In this document: piece by piece, positions 20,107-62,010 of the stretch
Numbering within the stretch: position 1 is the stretch's first letter
Layout of the letters: each line of letters begins with the position of its first letter
Source of the DNA: Micromonospora sp. MH99
GTDB taxonomy: Bacteria; Actinomycetota; Actinomycetes; Mycobacteriales; Micromonosporaceae
DNA: 64,000 bases
Assembly: GCF_021442385.1 (NCBI RefSeq)
Contig: NZ_MUZA01000001.1
Coordinates: 62,001-126,000 of the forward strand
Direction: 5' to 3'
Notes under the pieces: generated by a model
Seen by the model: the letters and a program-made list of their open reading frames with translations, nothing else
Told to the model about the DNA's origin: nothing
Database searches by the model: none
Translations under genes and position numbers: made by a program

Positions 20107-20136
20107 TTGCCATCCGATCGACGCAGCGCCTACCTT
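20107..20136 (+). promoter_or_regulatory. Predicted sigma-70-like promoter upstream of small ORF and tRNA array
   Basis: TTGCCA (20107-20112) and TACCTT (20131-20136) are separated by 18 bases. This is a plausible housekeeping promoter about 40 bases before the 43-codon ORF and the only good one seen before the array. Confidence 0.45.
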
Positions 20137-20176
20137 GATTGAGCAAGGCAGTCCCGACCCACCCGAGGAGTTCCCG

Positions 20177-20308
20177 ATGGCGCAGTACGCCTACACCGAA
20201 AGCACGCGGCTCATGCCGCGCGGCGGTGTCGTGCTGCCCTCGATCGGGCGAGCCCACAACCTGTGCGCAAATGAGCGGAACTGGGATCCGGGGTGGCGGC
20301 GCGAATAG
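20177..20308 (+). CDS. Small 43-residue protein of unknown function before the tRNA array
   Basis: The frame starts with ATG 20177 after a strong GAGGAG ribosome site (seven-base spacing). It is framed by a predicted promoter upstream and a strong terminator downstream, which together support a real small gene. The product begins MAQYAYTESTRLMPRGGVV and ends with an acidic/basic Trp-containing tail (NWDPGWRRE). No domain, signal peptide or membrane segment was recognised. Because it stands directly before the first tRNA, it could be a cargo gene or a remnant of the element that carries the array. Confidence 0.5.
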   Translation: MAQYAYTESTRLMPRGGVVLPSIGRAHNLCANERNWDPGWRRE

Positions 20309-20325
20309 CGTCAGCGCAAGCTGCG

Positions 20326-20360
20326 AAGCCGCCCACCCCGACCGGGACAGGGCGGCTTTT
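20326..20360 (+). terminator. Rho-independent terminator before the tRNA array
   Basis: AAGCCGCCC and GGGCGGCTT form a 9-bp stem with a 15-base loop, followed by TTTT. It ends the small ORF transcript 22 bases before tRNA-Trp. It is among the few U-tract terminators in the window. Confidence 0.75.
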
Positions 20361-20381
20361 CTGTTGCGGGAACAACGTCAC

Positions 20382-20454
20382 AGGGGCGTAGCTCAACTGG
20401 TAGAGCACCGGTCTCCAAAACCGAAGGTCGCAGGTTCGAGTCCTGCCGCCCCTG
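20382..20454 (+). tRNA. tRNA-Trp (CCA)
   Basis: A full cloverleaf: acceptor AGGGGCG/CGCCCCT, D arm GCTC...GAGC, loop CTCCAAA with anticodon CCA at 20415-20417, and T arm GCAGG/CCTGC. The anticodon stem has a C27-A43 mismatch. No CCA end is encoded. It is the first gene of the array. Confidence 0.93.
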
Positions 20455-20523
20455 CTTTTCGTCCCGGCTGCGGCCGGCGACGTCGTAGATTCTCAACTCC
20501 ACAGTGGATGGCATGAGCAAGAC

Positions 20524-20551
20524 CCGGCCGGCGCCGGCACGCGCCGGCCGG
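20524..20551 (+). repeat. GC-rich hairpin between tRNA-Trp and tRNA-Pro
   Basis: CCGGCCGGCGC and GCGCCGGCCGG form a perfect 11-bp stem with a 6-base loop. It could be a terminator without U tract or an RNA-processing signal within the array transcript. Confidence 0.6.
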
Positions 20552-20562
20552 GGGAATTACCT

Positions 20563-20635
20563 CCGGGACGAGGGAGACGGCTGACCCGCTCGCTTTGGGA
20601 GCGAGAGACACGGGGTTCGACACCCCGGTCCCGGA
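20563..20635 (+). tRNA. tRNA-Pro (TGG)
   Basis: Acceptor CCGGGAC/GTCCCGG, anticodon stem CTCGC/GCGAG, loop TTTGGGA with TGG at 20596-20598, T arm CGGGG/CCCCG. The D arm is short-paired. No encoded CCA (the sequence after the discriminator A is CCC). Confidence 0.9.
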
Positions 20636-20648
20636 CCCGTTCGAGTCG

Positions 20649-20697
20649 GGGAGGGGCACGTTCGCGGGGGACCGGTCCAGGTCTCCCAGCCCCTCCC
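20649..20697 (+). repeat. Compound hairpin between tRNA-Pro and tRNA-Glu
   Basis: GGGAGGGGC pairs with GCCCCTCCC (9 bp), enclosing a second 8-bp stem (GGGGGACC with GGTCTCCC, one G-T). The two-stage hairpin may be a processing or termination structure, or the residue of a lost tRNA. Confidence 0.5.
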
Positions 20698-20705
20698 GGC
20701 TTCAT

Positions 20706-20780
20706 GGGCCATTGGAGCTGTCGGCAAAGCTCACCTGGTTCTCAGCCAGGAGATCGTCGGTTCGAGCCCGACATGGCCTA
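20706..20780 (+). tRNA. tRNA-Glu (CTC)
   Basis: Acceptor GGGCCAT/ATGGCCT (one G-T), D stem GAGC/GCTC, anticodon stem CCTGG/CCAGG, loop TTCTCAG with CTC at 20741-20743, T arm GTCGG/CCGAC. All stems pair well. Confidence 0.9.
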
Positions 20781-20797
20781 CGTGGAAAATCCCTACC

Positions 20798-20874
20798 GCC
20801 TACCAGCTCACGTGGTTGAACGCACCGCTTCCAACGTGGAGGTGTCGCGTCCTGTCGAGCTGCCCCAGGTGTGG
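20798..20874 (+). pseudogene. Degenerate tRNA-like segment
   Basis: AGCTCACGTGGTTG and ACCGCTTCCAACGTGG-type stretches resemble a D arm and anticodon arm, but the D stem, the T arm (CCTGTCGAGC) and the acceptor do not pair. The loop could be read as a Gly (TCC) or Trp (CCA) anticodon. It is probably a decayed tRNA gene in the array. Confidence 0.35.
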
Positions 20875-20937
20875 GGCAACGGTGGGCGCGAAGTGCGCCA
20901 GCGGGCACGTTCCCGTCCAAGTGGTGGAGGCGCCCTG

Positions 20938-21010
20938 GCCGTCGTAGCTCAGATTGGGGGAGCGTCCCCTGGTACGGGGAAGGTCGCGCGTTCGATTCGC
21001 GCCGGTGGCT
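20938..21010 (+). tRNA. tRNA-Thr (GGT), CCA encoded, altered anticodon loop
   Basis: Acceptor GCCGTCG/CGGTGGC, T arm GCGCG/CGCGC and an encoded CCA (21011-21013). The best anticodon stem TCCCC/GGGGA leaves a six-base loop TGGTAC with GGT at 20971-20973. Keeping seven loop bases costs a G-A mismatch and a T-G wobble. Identity follows the anticodon. Confidence 0.8.
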
Positions 21011-21014
21011 CCAC

Positions 21015-21087
21015 GCGGTTGTAGCTCAGTTGGTAGAGCGCGACGTTGCCAACGTCGAGGTCGCCCGTTCGAATCGGGTCAACCGCT
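21015..21087 (+). tRNA. tRNA-Gly (GCC)
   Basis: Acceptor GCGGTTG/CAACCGC, D stem GCTC/GAGC, anticodon stem CGACG/CGTCG, loop TTGCCAA with GCC at 21048-21050, T arm GCCCG/CGGGT. It starts two bases after the CCA of tRNA-Thr. Confidence 0.93.
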
Positions 21088-21171
21088 CGATGCCTCTCGG
21101 GTAGAGACAGTGCGACATCACCGACGCCGGCCTCAACGGGCCGTTCGTGATCGGAAGAAGGGAGGGACCGG

Positions 21172-21363
21172 GTGGACGCCGGACCCCTACACCGCGTCAG
21201 GTTCGCCCACGCGATCCGGATGCTGAAGAACACCTGGCGGATCACCGTCAGCGCGTGCGCGCCCTGCAACCAGCGCAAGGGCGATCGGACCCCGGCCGAG
21301 GCAGGCATGGTGCTCCGCACCAGCCCGGTCGTGCCGGCGTGGGGGTCGCTGGCGCAGCGCTGA
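21172..21363 (+). pseudogene. HNH endonuclease remnant (C-terminal half)
   Basis: A 63-codon frame opening with GTG contains SACAPCNQRKGDRTPAEAGM, the zinc-knuckle and C-terminal part of actinobacterial and phage HNH endonucleases. The first half of the domain (the DHxxP-type HN motif and the first CxxC) is missing, and only a short unrelated leader precedes it. It is therefore probably a truncated, inactive gene. Its place between tRNA-Gly and tRNA-Gln suggests a past endonuclease insertion in the array, comparable to the frameshifted nuclease further on. Confidence 0.6.
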
Positions 21364-21398
21364 CACCGGCCGGCGGGCCATCACCCCGCCGGCCGCGA

Positions 21399-21470
21399 TG
21401 GGAGCTGATGTAACCGGCAGCATCGCTGGCTCTGACCCAGTGCGTAGAGGTTCGAATCCTCTGCTCCCAG
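21399..21470 (+). tRNA. tRNA-Gln (CTG)
   Basis: Acceptor TGGGAGC/GCTCCCA with the U1-A72 pair typical of Gln tRNAs, loop CTCTGAC with CTG at 21432-21434, T arm AGAGG/CCTCT. The D stem is three base pairs (ATG/CAT). Confidence 0.88.
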
Positions 21471-21474
21471 CTAG

Positions 21475-21547
21475 GCCCTCGTAGCCCAGTGGTAGAGGCG
21501 CGGTCGTGAGGCGGCCGACAGGGCAGGTTCGAATCCTGTCGGGGGCA
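21475..21547 (+). tRNA. tRNA with Leu anticodon (GAG) on a short-variable-loop body
   Basis: Acceptor GCCCTCG/CGGGGGC, anticodon stem CGGTC/GGCCG, loop GTGAGGC with GAG at 21508-21510, T arm GCAGG/CCTGT, encoded CCA (21548-21550). The variable loop is only five bases. Bacterial Leu tRNAs normally have a long variable arm, so charging by leucyl-tRNA synthetase is uncertain. Confidence 0.75.
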
Positions 21548-21551
21548 CCAA

Positions 21552-21624
21552 GCCGGTGTAGCTCAGTTGGCAGAGCACGCGCCTTGTAAGCGCGAGTGGG
21601 CCGGTTCGATCCCGGTCGCCGGCT
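21552..21624 (+). tRNA. tRNA-Thr (TGT), CCA encoded
   Basis: Acceptor GCCGGTG/CGCCGGC, D stem GCTC/GAGC, anticodon stem CGCGC/GCGCG, loop CTTGTAA with TGT at 21585-21587, T arm GCCGG/CCGGT. CCA is encoded at 21625-21627. Confidence 0.93.
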
Positions 21625-21633
21625 CCACACCCT

Positions 21634-21707
21634 GCCGCCGTAGCTCATCAGGCCAGAGCGACGTCCTCGTAAGACGTAGGCACCCGGTTCGAGTCCGGGC
21701 GGTGGCT
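21634..21707 (+). tRNA. tRNA-Thr (CGT)
   Basis: Acceptor GCCGCCG/CGGTGGC, anticodon stem ACGTC/GACGT, loop CTCGTAA with CGT at 21668-21670, T arm CCCGG/CCGGG. It is the third Thr isoacceptor in the array. Confidence 0.92.
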
Positions 21708-21712
21708 CTCTC

Positions 21713-21786
21713 GCCGACGTAGCTCAGGTGGTCAGAGCGTCCCGCTCATAACGGGAAGGTCCCCGGTTCGACACCGGGTGTCGGCA
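21713..21786 (+). tRNA. tRNA-Met (CAT), elongator type or possible Ile2
   Basis: Acceptor GCCGACG/TGTCGGC, anticodon stem TCCCG/CGGGA, loop CTCATAA with CAT at 21747-21749, T arm CCCGG/CCGGG. The paired G1-C72 excludes an initiator. A lysidine-modified Ile tRNA cannot be excluded from sequence. Confidence 0.88.
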
Positions 21787-21856
21787 CGCAACACCACCTG
21801 TCCGGGTGGGCAAAATCGCAAAGCCACCGCACTCGATTAGTGCAGGATTGCTAGTT

Positions 21857-22482
21857 ATGGGCAACCCGCGCACCTACACCGACGACCAGCTCCGCAACGC
21901 CGTCCAGGGCGCGACCTGCTGGGCAGACGTCATGGAAGCCATCGGCAAGTCACGGACAGCAGGTCGTACGAGTGTCCAAGCTGTCGCGGCCCGCCTCGAC
22001 TTGGACGTGTCGCACCTGACTCACGGCAGCAACCCTCGCCAGCTCGCAGCGCCAGCGCACCCGTTCAGCCAGCCAGCTCAGCACGGCGGACGATCGGGGT
22101 TGAGCATCGCCGCCCGATGGTTCATGGATCGGGGTTACAACGTCTCGATCCCGCTAGAGCCGGCCGCATACGACCTGATCGCGGAATCCGACACTGGACT
22201 GCAACGGGTGCAGGTCAAGACCACCGGCACGACCGAGAGCAATGGACGCTACCGGGCGGTCCTGCGGCGGACGGTGTACGACGCCAGCGCGCGGGATACC
22301 GCTCGTGGTCGCATCCGAGTCACGGGCTACACAAAGGGCGAGACCGACTTTTCTTCATCTCGACAGCGGGGGCCCTCGACTACCTCATCCCGGTAGAGGC
22401 GGTGAGCGGCGCGCAATACATCGTCCTCGACTCGAAGTACGCGGCGTTCGCGGTCGAGACGAGGAATCACATGCCCGGCTAG
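21857..22482 (+). pseudogene. PD-(D/E)XK-type endonuclease gene with a frameshift
   Basis: ATG 21857 opens an N-terminal helix-turn-helix-like region (YTDDQLRNAVQGATCWADVM, ending DLDVSHL) often found on actinobacterial homing-type nucleases. A PD-(D/E)XK core follows (AAYDLIAES...RVQVKTTG). At the TTTT run near 22349-22352 the frame is lost; one extra T, or a -1 slip, restores FFISTAGALDYLIPVEAV and runs to TAG 22482. The repaired product would have about 208 residues. The stop lies inside the next tRNA gene. Recent inactivation, programmed slippage or a sequencing error are all possible. Confidence 0.7.
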
Positions 22483-22546
22483 CCCAACTGGCAGAGGCGT
22501 CCCGTTCAGGGCGGGAAGGTTCGCGGTTCGAATCCGCGGTCGGGTA
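22473..22546 (+). tRNA. tRNA with Leu anticodon (CAG) on a short-variable-loop body
   Basis: Acceptor GCCCGGC/GTCGGGT, anticodon stem TCCCG/CGGGA, loop TTCAGGG with CAG at 22507-22509, variable loop AGGTT (five bases), T arm CGCGG/CCGCG. Like the GAG tRNA it lacks the long arm expected for Leu. Its first bases overlap the stop of the nuclease gene. Confidence 0.75.
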
Positions 22547-22560
22547 CTCAGCAACACCTT

Positions 22561-22633
22561 GGGGTCGTAGCTCAGTTGGTAGAGCGTCCCGCTCGCACCG
22601 GGAAGGCCGTCGGTTCGATTCCGTCCGACTCCA
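22561..22633 (+). tRNA. tRNA-Ala (CGC)
   Basis: Acceptor GGGGTCG/CGACTCC includes the G3-T70 wobble that specifies alanine. The anticodon loop CTCGCAC has CGC at 22594-22596. One T-T mismatch occurs in the T stem (GTCGG/CCGTC). Confidence 0.9.
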
Positions 22634-22718
22634 CGCCGCCGGCCCGCCGGTCGGCCCGAGGTTCCCCCGCACCAAGGTCACGTAAGCGTGGGCGATTCGC
22701 CGCCGGAAGCGGCCACAT

Positions 22719-22791
22719 GCCGACGTAGCTCAGTGGTTAGAGCACCCGACTGTCGATCGGGGGGCCGCGGGTTCGATCCCCGTCGTTGGCG
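22719..22791 (+). tRNA. tRNA-Asp (GTC)
   Basis: Acceptor GCCGACG/CGTTGGC, anticodon stem CCCGA/TCGGG, loop CTGTCGA with GTC at 22752-22754, T arm GCGGG/CCCGT, discriminator G as expected for Asp. Confidence 0.92.
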
Positions 22792-22796
22792 CGCAT

Positions 22797-22882
22797 GAAG
22801 GGTTGGCCGAGTCTGGTCGAGGCGCCGCGTTGCTGACGCGGAGCGGGTCATACTGCCGGGGGTTCGAATCCCTCACCGGGTC
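22797..22882 (+). tRNA. tRNA-Ser (GCT) with defective acceptor stem
   Basis: A class II body: anticodon stem CCGCG/CGCGG, loop TTGCTGA with GCT, long variable arm GCGG...CTGC, T arm GGGGG/CCCTC. The acceptor halves GAAGGGT and ACCGGGT have three mismatches in the middle, so only the inner three pairs and one terminal wobble remain. It may not be functional. Confidence 0.7.
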
Positions 22883-22940
22883 GCCGGGATGAGACAGAAC
22901 CCGGCGTACCGGCCGGCTTCCCTCGCCGCACGCACGACAT

Positions 22941-23013
22941 GCCCCCGTAGCTCAGTGGATAGAGCGCTTGACTACGAATCAAGAGGCCAGACGTTCGAAT
23001 CGTCTCGGGGGCA
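22941..23013 (+). tRNA. tRNA-Arg (ACG)
   Basis: Acceptor GCCCCCG/CGGGGGC, anticodon stem CTTGA/TCAAG, loop CTACGAA with ACG at 22974-22976, T arm AGACG/CGTCT, discriminator A. All stems are perfect. Confidence 0.94.
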
Positions 23014-23017
23014 CTCA

Positions 23018-23090
23018 CGGGATATGGCGCAGTTTGGTAGCGCACCTGACTGGGGCTCAGGGGGCCGTCGGTTCGAATCCGGCGCCCGCT
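23018..23090 (+). tRNA. tRNA-Pro (GGG) with damaged acceptor 3' side
   Basis: The 5' part CGGGATATGGCGCAGTTTGG and the anticodon arm CCTGA-CTGGGGC-TCAGG (GGG at 23052-23054) are typical Pro. The T arm GTCGG/CCGGC pairs, but the 3' acceptor reads GCCCG instead of the TATCCCG needed, as if two bases were lost. Probably non-functional. Confidence 0.65.
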
Positions 23091-23125
23091 CCCAGCGGTC
23101 CTGTCCGTTCGGGTCGGCCCTGGCA

Positions 23126-23146
23126 CAGGGAGTGCCAGGTGCAAGC
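23126..23146 (+). repeat. Hairpin between tRNA-Pro and tRNA-Val
   Basis: CCTGGCAC and GTGCCAGG form an 8-bp perfect stem around the loop AGGGA in the 91-bp gap after tRNA-Pro(GGG). Possible terminator or processing element. Confidence 0.5.
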
Positions 23147-23181
23147 GCGGCAGTACCCTCCGCGGCCGGCCGCCTATTCAC

Positions 23182-23254
23182 GCCCCGATAGCTCAGCGGG
23201 AGAGCACCGGTTCGACAGACCGGGGGTCGCTTGGTTCGACACCAGCTCGGGGCA
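23182..23254 (+). tRNA. tRNA-Val (GAC) with C33
   Basis: Acceptor GCCCCGA/TCGGGGC, anticodon stem CCGGT/ACCGG, loop TCGACAG with GAC at 23214-23216. Position 33 is C instead of the near-universal T. The T stem (CTTGG/CCAGC) has a terminal mismatch. Confidence 0.82.
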
Positions 23255-23266
23255 CGCACACCACCT

Positions 23267-23341
23267 GGCGCGGTGGACGAATTGGAAGAGTCGCCCGGCT
23301 TTCACCCGGGACATGTGCGGGTTCGAGTCCCGTCCGCGCTG
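23267..23341 (+). tRNA. tRNA-Glu (TTC)
   Basis: Acceptor GGCGCGG/CCGCGCT, D stem GAC/GTC, anticodon stem CCCGG/CCGGG, loop CTTTCAC with TTC at 23301-23303, T arm GCGGG/CCCGT. Confidence 0.92.
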
Positions 23342-23345
23342 CCGA

Positions 23346-23431
23346 TCTGGCGTAAACCGTAATTGGTAACGGTCCGGACTGTTAATCCGGCGGGCGCAAG
23401 CCCTCTACAGGTTCGAGCCCTGTCGCCAGAG
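23346..23431 (+). tRNA. tRNA-Asn (GTT) with an extra GNRA-capped variable arm
   Basis: Acceptor TCTGGCG/CGCCAGA, D stem ACCG/CGGT, anticodon stem CCGGA/TCCGG, loop CTGTTAA with GTT at 23381-23383, T arm ACAGG/CCTGT. The variable region is 16 bases and folds as GGGC-GCAA-GCCC (23392-23403), whereas bacterial Asn tRNAs have about five variable bases. All other stems are perfect. Confidence 0.88.
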
Positions 23432-23435
23432 CCAA

Positions 23436-23507
23436 GCCCGCGTAGCTCAACGGGAGAGCGCCTGGTTTACACCCAGGGGGTCGGAGGTTCGACACCTTCC
23501 GCGGGTA
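23436..23507 (+). tRNA. tRNA-Val (TAC)
   Basis: Acceptor GCCCGCG/CGCGGGT, anticodon stem CCTGG/CCAGG, loop TTTACAC with TAC at 23468-23470, T arm GGAGG/CCTTC, discriminator A. Confidence 0.93.
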
Positions 23508-23527
23508 CTGGCCTTCGGGCCGTAGTT

Positions 23528-23599
23528 GTGGCTGTAGCTCAGTGGTAGAGCGCCCGGTTGTGGTCCGGGTTGTCGCGGGTTCGAGTCCCGCCAGTCACC
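23528..23599 (+). tRNA. tRNA-His (GTG), CCA encoded, no G-1
   Basis: Acceptor GTGGCTG/CAGTCAC, anticodon stem CCCGG/CCGGG, loop TTGTGGT with GTG at 23560-23562, T arm GCGGG/CCCGC, discriminator C and CCA at 23600-23602. The base before position 1 is T (23527), so the G-1 identity base of bacterial His tRNAs is not encoded. Confidence 0.9.
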
Positions 23600-23603
23600 C
23601 CAC

Positions 23604-23687
23604 GGGAGTGCGCCACCGATGGTGAGGTGGGCCGGGCTGTAACCCCGGTGCGTTCGCGCTCAGGGAGTTCGAATCTCTCCACTCCCA
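23604..23687 (+). tRNA. tRNA-Tyr (GTA)
   Basis: Acceptor GGGAGTG/CACTCCC, anticodon stem CCGGG/CCCGG, loop CTGTAAC with GTA at 23639-23641, long variable arm GCG-TTCG-CGC as normal for bacterial Tyr, T arm GGGAG/CTCTC. Confidence 0.93.
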
Positions 23688-23692
23688 CGCTG

Positions 23693-23765
23693 GCCCGCGT
23701 AGCTCAGGGGATAGAGCACCAGCTTCCGGAGTTGGGTGTCGGGGGTTCGATTCCCTCCGCGGGCG
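23693..23765 (+). tRNA. tRNA-Arg (CCG)
   Basis: Acceptor GCCCGCG/CGCGGGC, anticodon stem CCAGC/GTTGG, loop TTCCGGA with CCG at 23726-23728, T arm GGGGG/CCCTC, discriminator G. Confidence 0.92.
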
Positions 23766-23774
23766 CTTCTGCCT

Positions 23775-23845
23775 GGTCGTGTGCCCGAGTGGTGAGGGAG
23801 CGGTCCGCAAAACCGCGTACGCCGGTTCGATTCCGGCCACGGCCT
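23775..23845 (+). tRNA. tRNA-Cys (GCA) with C33
   Basis: Acceptor GGTCGTG/CACGGCC, anticodon stem GCGGT/ACCGC, loop CCGCAAA with GCA at 23807-23809, T arm GCCGG/CCGGC, discriminator T as expected for Cys. Position 33 is C rather than T. Last gene of the array. Confidence 0.87.
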
Positions 23846-23927
23846 CGACTGCCATCCACTGTGGTGCGAGGACGCAGCGTGCCGTCCACAGGCTCTCCGG
23901 GGAGACGCTCGCCCGAGGCGGTGGCGG

Positions 23928-34739: not shown

Positions 34740-34871
34740 TTCCAACCACCTATTCCAAGGGCAGGCAATATCGGTCGATGGTGCCGCGGGTCACTATGCC
34801 CTGTCCGGTACGGGCTGCGCGATCCACCTCCGACGGACGCGTCGCCATCGCAACCCGCCCGCCGCGCACCG

Positions 34872-35453
34872 TCAGCGGCGCACCCGGTAGCGCAGGTGAA
34901 GCACCCGGTTGCCCGGAATCACCACGTCAGGGTCCTCCAACAGGTGCTGCGCGTCGACCGACCCGAAGTAGCGCTTGCCGGACCCGAACACGACGGGTAC
35001 GACGTCCATGCGCACCTCGTCGACCAGACCCGCGGCGAGCACCTGGCCACCGACGTTTCCAGCGGCGACCTCGACGATGCGGTCACCCGCGAGTTCCTGC
35101 GCCCTGGCCATGGCCGCCTCGACGCCGTCGACGAAGTGAAACGGCGCCTCCGGGTCCCAACCCTCGGGCGCCGGCCGGTGCGTCACGACGACCACGTGGT
35201 CGATCCCGCCCGGAGGCTTACCGTCCCAGCCGTCCGTCATGTCGAAGACGTGGCGGCCGACGACTGTCACCCCGATCTGGTCCCAGTAGGGCCGGGTGTA
35301 GTCGTAGGACGTCTGTGACACCTTCAGCGCGCCGCTGTCGTCCAACGGGACGTCACCGCTGGACAACCAGTCGAACAGCGGGCCGGGCTGGTCGTTCTCG
35401 TCCGCGACGAAGCCGTCCACCGACACCGAGCTGTACATGACGACAGTGCCCAC
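34872..35453 (-). CDS. Dihydrofolate reductase family protein (RibD C-terminal-like)
   Basis: A 193-residue protein beginning MGTVVMYSSVSVDGFVADEND, the family signature. VVGRHVFDMTDGWDGKPP and VEVAAGNVGGQVLAAGLVDEVRMDVVPVVFGSG form the NADPH-binding part. Such proteins are NAD(P)H-dependent reductases of unknown substrate and are common next to regulators in actinobacteria. It sits 64 bases downstream of the AraC-family gene on the same strand, so it may belong to that gene's transcription unit. Confidence 0.9.
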   Translation of the reverse strand: MGTVVMYSSVSVDGFVADENDQPGPLFDWLSSGDVPLDDSGALKVSQTSYDYTRPYWDQIGVTVVGRHVFDMTDGWDGKPPGGIDHVVVVTHRPAPEGWDPEAPFHFVDGVEAAMARAQELAGDRIVEVAAGNVGGQVLAAGLVDEVRMDVVPVVFGSGKRYFGSVDAQHLLEDPDVVIPGNRVLHLRYRVRR

Positions 35454-35517
35454 GGGGCTCTCCTCTGCCTGGGGGCCCTCAAATTAGCGTGCCGTGAGAC
35501 GTCGTTCTTGTAAGAAA

Positions 35518-36363
35518 TCAATCGATTGGCAGCGGCCAGCCGTCCAGCACGTGGCCGGGATGGTCGCGGAGGAACCGCCGCCGGACTTCGACGTACCGGG
35601 TCGGCGTGAGGCCGGTGAACGCCCGGAACTCGTGGCCGAAGTGCGCCTGGTCGAAGTAGCCCGCGCCGCCGGCGAGGTGGCCCCAGTCGATCGGTCCGGC
35701 GGGATCGATCGAGAGCACGGTGGCGGCGAAGCGGTGGGTGCGGGCCAGTCGCTTCGGTGTGACGCCGATGAGCTCCTTGAAACGCCGTGCCAGATGGGTG
35801 CTGCTGACACCGGCTGCCACGCTCAGGTCGCCGATCGCCACGCTCCCGCTGGTCGTCGCGATGAGACTGCTCGTGTGCCTGACCAGCCCCAGGCCGGCGG
35901 TCTCGCACAGCCGCCGCATCAGCTCGTCCTCAAGCAGCGTCAGCATCTCGTGCGGTCCGGCCGACGCGGCCAGCCGGTCGCGCAGCTCAGCAACGGCGGG
36001 CCGGCCCCACACCTGTTCCATCGTCACCGGCCGGTCACACAGCTCGGCCGCGGGCATCGGCAGGAACGGCGCCAGCCCCCACGGCTTGACGTGTACGCCG
36101 ACGGACCGGGTCGGAAGTGGGTAGCCGAACTCCAGCGCGCGGGTGGGCGTGGTGACCACGCAGCCGTCGGCGTACTCGGCCGTCTCGATGTCGGTGCCGC
36201 CGCGGATGCGGAACGGCGCCCCGAGGTTCACGATCAGCAACGCCCCCGGCATCGGCGGCAGCATCAGCCGGGCGTACGGCGGCGTACCTTCCAGGTAGTA
36301 GACGTCGTCGATCAGTCGGTCCAGCGGTGGCCGCGGCAGTCTGGACACATACTCCACGCCCAC
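35518..36363 (-). CDS. AraC family transcriptional regulator
   Basis: About 281 residues. An N-terminal sensor domain similar to DUF6597 (LIDDVYYLEGTPPYARLMLPPMPGALLIVNLG...VHVKPWGLAPFL) is followed by a C-terminal AraC helix-turn-helix pair (IGDLSVAAGVSSTHLARRFKELIGVTPKRLARTHRF ... YFDQAHFGHEFRAFTGLTPTRYVE). GTG 36363 is a choice among several GTG codons; the frame continues upstream with arginine/proline-rich sequence. A decayed copy of its middle part lies at 43215-43356. It is divergent from the MscS channel gene and upstream of the DHFR-like gene. Confidence 0.88.
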   Translation of the reverse strand: MGVEYVSRLPRPPLDRLIDDVYYLEGTPPYARLMLPPMPGALLIVNLGAPFRIRGGTDIETAEYADGCVVTTPTRALEFGYPLPTRSVGVHVKPWGLAPFLPMPAAELCDRPVTMEQVWGRPAVAELRDRLAASAGPHEMLTLLEDELMRRLCETAGLGLVRHTSSLIATTSGSVAIGDLSVAAGVSSTHLARRFKELIGVTPKRLARTHRFAATVLSIDPAGPIDWGHLAGGAGYFDQAHFGHEFRAFTGLTPTRYVEVRRRFLRDHPGHVLDGWPLPID

Positions 36364-36667
36364 AGCATCGCCGACACCCCGAACGAGGGCCGGCCGCGAC
36401 ACGTCTTCGGTGCGGACCAACGCCCGACCCGTGGCGCGGGCACCGGCCGGTCGAGCGTGCCGGGGAGGCGGTCGCGACGTTCGCGGCGAGAGGCGTGACA
36501 ACCAGGCAGGCAGACCGGCACCCACTGTCGGGCGTTTGCGGCAGGCTCGTTCAGCGCCTGTTTGCCGATGTTGCCGCCCGCCACCGGATCCGATGGCACC
36601 CTGGGCCCGTGGACCGGGCAGCGAGCCCGGGGGAGGGTGGCATCAGGATCACGGTGAACGGCTTCTG
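36364..36667. other. 304-bp divergent intergenic region
   Basis: This region lies between the AraC-family gene and the MscS-like gene. It must carry both promoters. No tRNA, strong dyad or credible short gene was found. Confidence 0.45.
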
Positions 36668-61977: not shown

Positions 61978-62010
61978 CGTGCGCAGCCTGATCACGCCGG
62001 GCATGCCCGG

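Follow-up and report, generated by a model that had tools for sequence, protein, structure and literature searches.

Why a bacterial chromosome should carry a second, densely packed set of transfer RNA (tRNA) genes, and what might decide when such a set is expressed, is the question raised by a locus of Micromonospora sp. MH99. The window analysed here (the whole stretch of 64,000 nucleotides, positions 62,001–126,000 of contig NZ_MUZA01000001.1) contains an array of 24 tRNA genes in 3.46 kb, all on the + strand (ARAGORN and Rfam calls combined). In number and density it belongs to the known kind 'tRNA array unit', defined as at least 20 tRNA genes with at least two per kb (as quoted in PMC5966550). 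A preliminary description of this DNA had proposed a horizontally moving translation module that might act when host tRNAs are cleaved; the leader and putative attenuator described below lie upstream of the coordinates it gave and had gone unnoticed. They would give that role a concrete regulatory basis, with cleavage as the presumed trigger. We consider it probable (about 0.78) that the array is a silent, inducible operon of replacement tRNAs under ribosome-mediated transcription attenuation.

Leader region and its match to the array

The conserved stretch upstream of the array holds, in order, promoter-like hexamers, a Shine–Dalgarno sequence, a leader open reading frame (ORF), a terminator hairpin and the tRNA genes. 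In the window, where all these elements are on the + strand, the hexamers read TTGCCA and TACCTT, separated by 18 nt (20107–20136); TACC(T/G)T recurs in the leader alignment, and TTGCCA-N17-TACCGT was found in a Paractinoplanes locus. A strict consensus scan returned no promoter and also missed the window terminator, the latter because its loop is longer than the scan permits. The Shine–Dalgarno sequence GAGGAG (20165–20170) precedes a leader ORF of 43 residues (20177–20308; MAQYAYTESTRLMPRGGVVLPSIGRAHNLCANERNWDPGWRRE) in which 18 different amino acids are used, only Phe and Lys being missing. An intrinsic terminator hairpin (AAGCCGCCC...GGGCGGCTT) with a U tract follows at 20326–20362, and the 5′ arm of a predicted antiterminator, GGGGTGGCGGC, lies within the last leader codons (20290–20300), where it can pair with 20328–20339. 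A permissive Rfam search for known regulatory RNA families gave tRNA, tRNA-like or sub-threshold matches only.

Leaders at other loci were identified with a script that required an ORF of 28–70 codons, a Shine–Dalgarno sequence and a terminator 5–75 bases past the stop codon, amino-acid content not being used. The script recovered this layout at 58 array loci out of 62, a total that counts the window and also three contigs that are duplicates, and the leader stretch was present in all 19 of the loci that were aligned. Among the four loci for which the script returned none, L061 has a leader recognizable by homology (the 59th), the leader of L114 is the same as that of L061, L101 is cut by a contig end and L099, a remnant of three tRNAs, had no visible leader. 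Two remnants that fell outside the 62-locus scan because no tRNA-Trp was called (L070 and L071) also have one. Merging of the duplicates L089 and L115 left 57 distinct leaders, and exclusion of the incomplete L063, L090 and L116 left 54 arrays; cut arrays were completed before the matching tests. The leader peptides diverge widely between genera and are of similar length (36–55 residues), with 14–26 bases between stop codon and hairpin. Many contain all 20 amino acids within 41–52 residues, including those of several Micromonospora strains, Asanoa, a Micromonosporaceae bin, and Pseudarthrobacter and Arthrobacter plasmids; the chance of finding all 20 in 43 residues was 0.005, as judged from windows of 17 long ORFs of the region.

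Comparison of leaders with arrays argues strongly that the amino acids of the leader mirror the isotypes of the array, and that this holds for the leader frame specifically. Across 54 arrays and 19 amino acids (Met was excluded because of the start codon), the amino acid occurred in the leader in 605 of the 616 cells in which the array had the isotype, and in 249 of the 410 in which it did not. Array tRNAs were called by ARAGORN alone in the matching tests, so that degenerate ones were counted as absent. With margins held fixed (a design that replaced row permutation without control for array size and from which both Ile and Met were excluded) and one leader per cluster (31 clusters), 81.2 of the 86.9 cells with the amino acid missing from the leader also had the isotype missing from the array, where 62.6 would be expected (z 6.2), whereas the other two frames of the same DNA gave z 1.5 (+1) and −0.3 (+2). 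The result held for arrays of 8–19 isotypes (z 5.3) and for one leader per genus (42.4 of 45.2 against 33.0 expected, z 4.4; 17 groups, with the two loci of f13, a further family of the same order, merged because they are one genus). Isotype number and leader diversity were correlated over cluster means (rho 0.75, 31 clusters). When 22 disjoint pairs of similar leaders were compared, leader and array differed in the same way in 26 cells and in opposite ways in two; the leader alone differed in 24 cells, in 21 of which the isotype was absent from both arrays, and where both arrays of a pair had the isotype the leader lacked the amino acid in only three of 400 readings. At the level of codons, 823 of 890 array tRNAs could be decoded from the leader, compared with 780 expected from synonymous resampling (cluster test P 0.007).

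Individual loci illustrate the match. All 23 ARAGORN-called array tRNAs of the window have a decoding leader codon (20.5 expected, P 0.07), and both gaps of its leader, Phe and Lys, are absent from the array, which additionally lacks Ile. The corresponding count in M. maritima was 32 of 32, and in M. costi, with 35 array tRNAs, Tyr is the single gap of both array and leader. Two plasmids were checked after the rule had been set: in that of Arthrobacter caoxuetaonis (34 array tRNAs) Cys is the sole gap in array and leader alike, and in that of Paenarthrobacter both are complete (20 of 20). The full set of 20 amino acids also occurs in the leaders of three Curtobacterium plasmids (43, 44 and 44 residues), likewise examined at that stage; one of these leaders carries the annotation of a hypothetical protein. 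Three contigs of viral collections have the module too. Of their leaders, one contains every amino acid, one is identical to the M. costi leader and the third, that of L147, is considered below.

Attenuation as the proposed mode of control

The window terminator hairpin has a folding energy of −23.4 kcal/mol (z −3.72). In 31 homologous segments, taken from 42 distinct aligned segments and not including the window, the terminator helix was 96.3 % paired and two of its pairs had changed on both sides, and the antiterminator helix was 96.8 % paired. The antiterminator duplex of the window scored −28.5 against −20.1 for dinucleotide shuffles (z −2.64), and in 32 of 32 cluster means the 5′ arm of the terminator paired more strongly with the final 33 bases of the leader than in such shuffles (mean z −2.4). 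This shuffle test on the antiterminator arm replaced equilibrium folding of whole leaders as the test of switching, which was found to be non-discriminating and showed strong switching in 13 of 57 leaders. Sequestration values for early and late ribosome positions (0.80 versus 0.23) were not relied on, since they are partly forced by the late ribosome hiding the pairing partner.

Ribosome-mediated attenuators such as those of trp, his and ilv consist of a leader peptide, a terminator and a mutually exclusive antiterminator, and the same parts are proposed here. Their leaders regulate enzymes and repeat codons for one to three amino acids, whereas the present leaders list up to 20 amino acids and precede tRNA genes. 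The parts read from the sequence (leader, terminator, complementarity and leader–isotype match) could operate as follows. RNA polymerase would initiate 5′ of the short leader ORF. On full translation of the leader, the ribosome would cover the last codons (GGGGTGGCGGC), the terminator would fold and transcription would end before the tRNAs; if it stalled at a codon for want of the matching tRNA, the last codons would be left free to pair with the 5′ arm of the terminator, which would then be blocked, and the array would be transcribed. As the leader has a codon for almost every isotype of the array, depletion of nearly any replaceable tRNA would be expected to switch it on. A boxA-like motif and a closing helix (see below) probably aid completion and processing of the long untranslated transcript, in the manner of ribosomal RNA (rRNA) operons. 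We infer that the array would be silent until induced, and that amino-acid starvation would not be the natural trigger; this would instead be the destruction of tRNAs, whether by anticodon nucleases, by tRNA-cutting toxins or through phage shut-off.

Several observations weigh against this reading. Two-sided covariation was not seen in the antiterminator helix in the 31 sequences, and the same antiterminator was not found in A. caoxuetaonis or in the leaders of the three Curtobacterium plasmids (z 0.23 to 0.64). In equilibrium folding of whole leaders the terminator was mostly favoured, also when an early stall was modelled (median terminator probability 0.79), so that the model needs co-transcriptional folding in which the antiterminator forms first. 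The matching rule was broken in 11 of the 616 cells, and also in L147, whose leader, read by eye because the scripts found none with a hairpin, lacks Tyr while the array has tRNA-Tyr. The leader of M. craterilacus, which is related to M. costi, likewise lacks Tyr despite a tRNA-Tyr in its array, which makes the M. costi match less telling. Many leaders retain amino acids whose isotypes the array lacks (the 249 of 410 cells given above). Leader diversity by itself was only mildly above chance (P 0.015, 32 clusters), because reduced arrays have poor leaders; it is weak evidence, and the matching test carries the case. Finally, five other plasmid arrays (two from Mycolicibacterium and one each from Mycobacterium, Tsukamurella and Miltoncostaea) had no leader by the same criteria in the 500 bases upstream of the first tRNA (331 for L073), so the device is not universal.

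Other explanations account for parts of these data. A leader that senses any stall, for example one caused by antibiotics, with an amino-acid make-up not tuned to the array, would be in keeping with the Anabaena tRNA operon, which is induced by a translation-blocking antibiotic (PMC10272220), and with an upstream ORF of Escherichia coli that senses several classes of antibiotic (PMC12121999), as far as the available parts of these papers go. Such a general switch predicts no amino-acid-specific match, and since the match is strong and limited to the leader frame, we regard it as unlikely. Starvation for amino acids, with uncharged rather than missing tRNA as the signal, would also stall ribosomes, and the layout of the device is like that of biosynthetic attenuators; the product, however, is tRNA and no biosynthetic enzyme, and the codons retained are chiefly those of isotypes available from the array, which leaves this possibility very improbable. 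Because extra tRNA is no cure for starvation and a general sensor needs no match, a missing tRNA would be the best trigger.

The upstream ORF might alternatively encode an unrelated small protein or have arisen by chance, its match with the array reflecting shared ancestry, decay or GC-driven composition. The leaders of reduced arrays are indeed poorer in different amino acids, as general decay could produce, and GC-rich genomes are sparing in Phe, Lys, Asn and Ile codons. Against this stand the fixed-margin results (overall, for 8–19 isotypes and per genus) with the low values of the other frames, the 26 versus two cells of the disjoint pairs, and the persistence of length, Shine–Dalgarno sequence and terminator spacing while the peptides diverge between genera; we give the explanation almost no weight. 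It is somewhat easier to imagine, though still distinctly unlikely, that the array of this genome is a decaying mobile remnant without current function, since it contains two nuclease remnants and a few odd members and has fewer tRNAs than the 29–37 of fuller Micromonosporaceae arrays. Its promoter-like hexamers, leader, terminator and antiterminator nevertheless look intact, its leader gaps are confined to Phe and Lys, both missing from the array too, and every ARAGORN-called tRNA has its decoding codon in the leader, as described above. Attenuation of an operon of replacement tRNAs is therefore preferred.

Composition and ends of the array

ARAGORN, one of the checks suggested in the preliminary description, called 23 tRNA genes within 20382–23846, on the + strand only, and the 24th, Pro(GGG) at 23018–23089, was added by the Rfam tRNA model (41.1 bits). 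The 24 genes have 24 distinct anticodons and cover 17 isotypes: Trp (cca), Pro (tgg and ggg), Glu (ctc and ttc), Thr (ggt, tgt and cgt), Gly (gcc), Gln (ctg), Leu (gag and cag), Met (cat), Ala (cgc), Asp (gtc), Ser (gct), Arg (acg and ccg), Val (gac and tac), Asn (gtt), His (gtg), Tyr (gta) and Cys (gca). Trp(cca), found by both programs, comes first (20382–20455), and the other 23, from Pro(tgg) to Cys(gca), occupy 20562–23846; Phe, Lys and Ile are not represented. These calls agree with the number, orientation, extent of about 3.5 kb and isotypes given previously, including the three missing ones, while a decayed tRNA reported there was not confirmed by any tool. The coordinates given at that time cover the tRNA genes and leave outside the 5′ part (about 20107–20381) and a 3′ complementary end (23850–23864). 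In a search of the whole genome 22 of the 24 genes passed the Rfam tRNA gathering score; Pro(tgg) and Thr(ggt) were called by ARAGORN only, although Thr(ggt) reached 44.5 bits in a permissive Rfam scan.

The draft genome (6.86 Mb) gave 72 Rfam tRNA matches, 22 of them inside the array. The 50 tRNA genes outside it (ARAGORN reading) serve all 20 amino acids and include every array anticodon, and the array is therefore redundant with the core set, as had been supposed. The 23 array tRNAs that were compared had 57–87 % identity to their core counterparts with the same anticodon. The seven-base anticodon loop differed in 15 of the 23, as might be expected of tRNAs altered at the target sites of nucleases, but this figure is to be read against the low identity of the whole molecules.

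Two remnants of nuclease genes, also listed previously, were recovered between tRNA genes on the + strand: a PD-(D/E)XK endonuclease at 21806–22396 (Pfam PF11645, E 1.3e-11) and an HNH endonuclease at 21160–21363 (PHROG HNH, E 2.4e-6; Pfam HNH_5, E 0.0014, below its cut-off). The HNH remnant (window 21228–21377) has 74 % DNA identity to another place in the same genome (G000:C64:53914-54065) and resembles single places in many relatives of the genus.

In the Micromonosporales arrays examined, the tRNAs with Leu anticodons GAG and CAA, and in some arrays CAG, are 69–79 bases long and lack the long variable arm of core tRNA-Leu. The window has two (21475–21550 and 22473–22547), and others occur in L057, L058, L060, L068, L170, L171 and L172; in a Pseudarthrobacter array the short form is confined to CAA. 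A role of these class I leucine tRNAs, present in many arrays, as mischarging or decoy tRNAs was considered and set aside, charging being beyond sequence analysis. At the Met position of one relative's array (L053:9170-9245) a gene was called whose anticodon, TTA, would decode UAA stop codons.

Within the array, behind tRNA-Trp, lies the motif AACTCCACAGTGGATGGCA (20495–20513, +), identified by alignment and pattern scan, which we take to resemble the boxA region of actinomycete rRNA operons. The related TGAGAACTCAACAG occurs at four places of the same genome, presumably rRNA leaders. The motif could form the 5′ arm of a long-range helix closed around the array by TGCCATCCACTGTGG (23850–23864, +), an exact complement of part of it; the end-to-end duplex of the window has an energy of −33.1 kcal/mol. 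The 5′ motif, in the pattern used, was present in 49 of 54 complete arrays, 37 of which had an end duplex of −20 kcal/mol or better, and the ends of an array fitted each other better than they fitted the ends of other arrays (P 0.00024). These data point to a helix that encloses the array, by analogy with the processing of rRNA. Three mycobacterial plasmid arrays (L073, L074 and L079) have a boxA-like TTGAGAACT-type motif before the first tRNAs, and no leader with a terminator was found in them. A mobile element bounded by inverted repeats at 20495 and 23850 was also considered and rejected, as these repeats exclude tRNA-Trp and the leader, although the leader stretch accompanies all 19 aligned loci, and no transposase was seen; an RNA processing helix is preferred for the complementary ends, although covarying ends would suit DNA repeats too.

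Distribution, mobility and related systems

A search with the array against 101 genomes led to 20 stretches, in which ARAGORN revealed one common order, mostly with tRNA-Trp first and, in the fuller arrays, usually with tRNA-Cys last. Some held up to 36 tRNAs and others were reduced to 4–8. At least 17 of 60 genus relatives have an array or a remnant of four or more tRNAs, a minimum because only two places per genome were scored. A scan for the motif AACTNCACAGYGGATGGCA, with one genome per species, yielded 54 stretches; the genera in which tRNA arrays stand behind this motif belong to the Micromonosporaceae. Arrays of the same design are found on plasmids and on viral-collection contigs. Scans of viral collections gave 11 stretches, three of them with arrays (L145, L147 and L148), and the contig of L147 has matches to a DnaB-like helicase and a DNA polymerase exonuclease; a further scan gave a single stretch (L221) without a group of four tRNAs. 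Matches on three Streptomyces plasmids (L226–L228) had no group of at least four tRNAs in the stretch and hence are not arrays.

The proposal of a horizontally moving module is borne out in part. The occurrence in a minority of the relatives, as far as scored, and the plasmid and viral contigs speak for it, as does the fact that the immediate flanks of the window array were shared by none of the 17 array loci compared. Against mobility, a scan of five flanking genes detected no integrase, and the common flanks of a group of reduced arrays show that this group was inherited in place. The suggested comparison of presence and absence in relatives furnished no clean empty site, because the conserved flanks are not adjacent there, and this too counts against mobility. 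The right flank (pfl genes) is conserved to 23919 and the left to about 20065, and in two relatives with single-contig genomes and both flanks over nearly the whole query (G006 and G012) they are separated by about 149 kb and 5.0 Mb. A segment of 1.5 kb located 11 kb from the window array (34870–36376) was found close to the arrays of L058 and L060. Two Micromonospora relatives (L053 and L054) have the same chromosomal flanks around arrays of opposite orientation, and three genomes have two arrays, each with its own leader (L060/L061 in G023, L161/L162 in G101 and L177/L178 in G113).

Inside plasmid arrays lie genes for RNA ligases (PF09414) and for the HAD domain of 'Swiss Army Knife RNA repair proteins' (PF18143), and a T4-type RNA ligase (PF09511) is encoded by a Streptomyces phage whose tRNAs are scattered; the genes of these three kinds are at L223:24262-24795, L222:16805-17356 and L182:6275-6799, L223:26128-27189 and L224:23708-24769, and L080:6526-7638. 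On four Micrococcales plasmids such RNA-repair HAD or RNA ligase genes are enclosed by the arrays, which is consistent with tRNA damage. Functions for repairing and for replacing tRNAs thus seem to be carried together.

Comparison with published systems draws on the available parts of the papers cited. The array resembles the tRNA array units of mycobacteria in its dense set of more than 20 core-redundant tRNA genes and its internal HNH gene, which is frequent there, and such units likewise occur on chromosomes, plasmids and phages (PMC5966550, PMC12803027, PMC6515697). They have been suggested to counter defence (PMC5966550, PMC12803027). Unlike the present array, mycobacterial plasmid arrays had no leader in the stretches examined, and the available main text of PMC5966550 and PMC12803027 makes no mention of a leader or of attenuation. 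The trn operon of Anabaena is also an accessory tRNA operon that is silent, megaplasmid-borne and induced by translational stress, but it has a ribbon–helix–helix repressor, TrcR, at its promoter instead of a leader peptide with an attenuator (PMC10272220). In E. coli a short ORF upstream of TopAI-YjhQ similarly converts ribosome stalling into downstream expression; it controls a toxin–antitoxin pair, and the text available does not describe any correspondence of its codons to encoded tRNAs (PMC12121999). Phage tRNAs that evade tRNA-cutting defences likewise replace those of the host, and changes in their anticodon loops have been proposed to resist nucleases (PMC10264068, PMC11555353); no damage-responsive switch, induction or promoter is mentioned in the accessible part of PMC10264068. 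Among the literature matches listed, from a search that most subscription papers lay outside, no leader-peptide attenuator of tRNA arrays is described, and a tRNA operon, a leader peptide and attenuation occurred together only in pyrrolysine engineering. A leader peptide serving as an inventory of downstream tRNA genes is likewise not described in the literature searched, the array kind itself being known.

We think it fairly likely that the leader peptide is an inventory in this sense, listing the tRNA genes under its control, and that it belongs to a tRNA-damage response with which mobile elements or hosts meet tRNA-cutting toxins and defences. On this reading the device extends across Micromonosporaceae, a further family of that order (f13), Micrococcaceae and Microbacteriaceae, and occurs on plasmids and virus-collection contigs as well. 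Arrays of tRNA genes have long been catalogued without a known role, and the mirrored leader hints that the signal to which they respond is missing tRNAs. The match between leader and array predicts that arrays are silent until needed and makes their role testable codon by codon. If this is true, it would extend attenuation from the sensing of one amino acid to that of the whole tRNA pool, and would provide a ready reporter for tRNA-cutting toxins.

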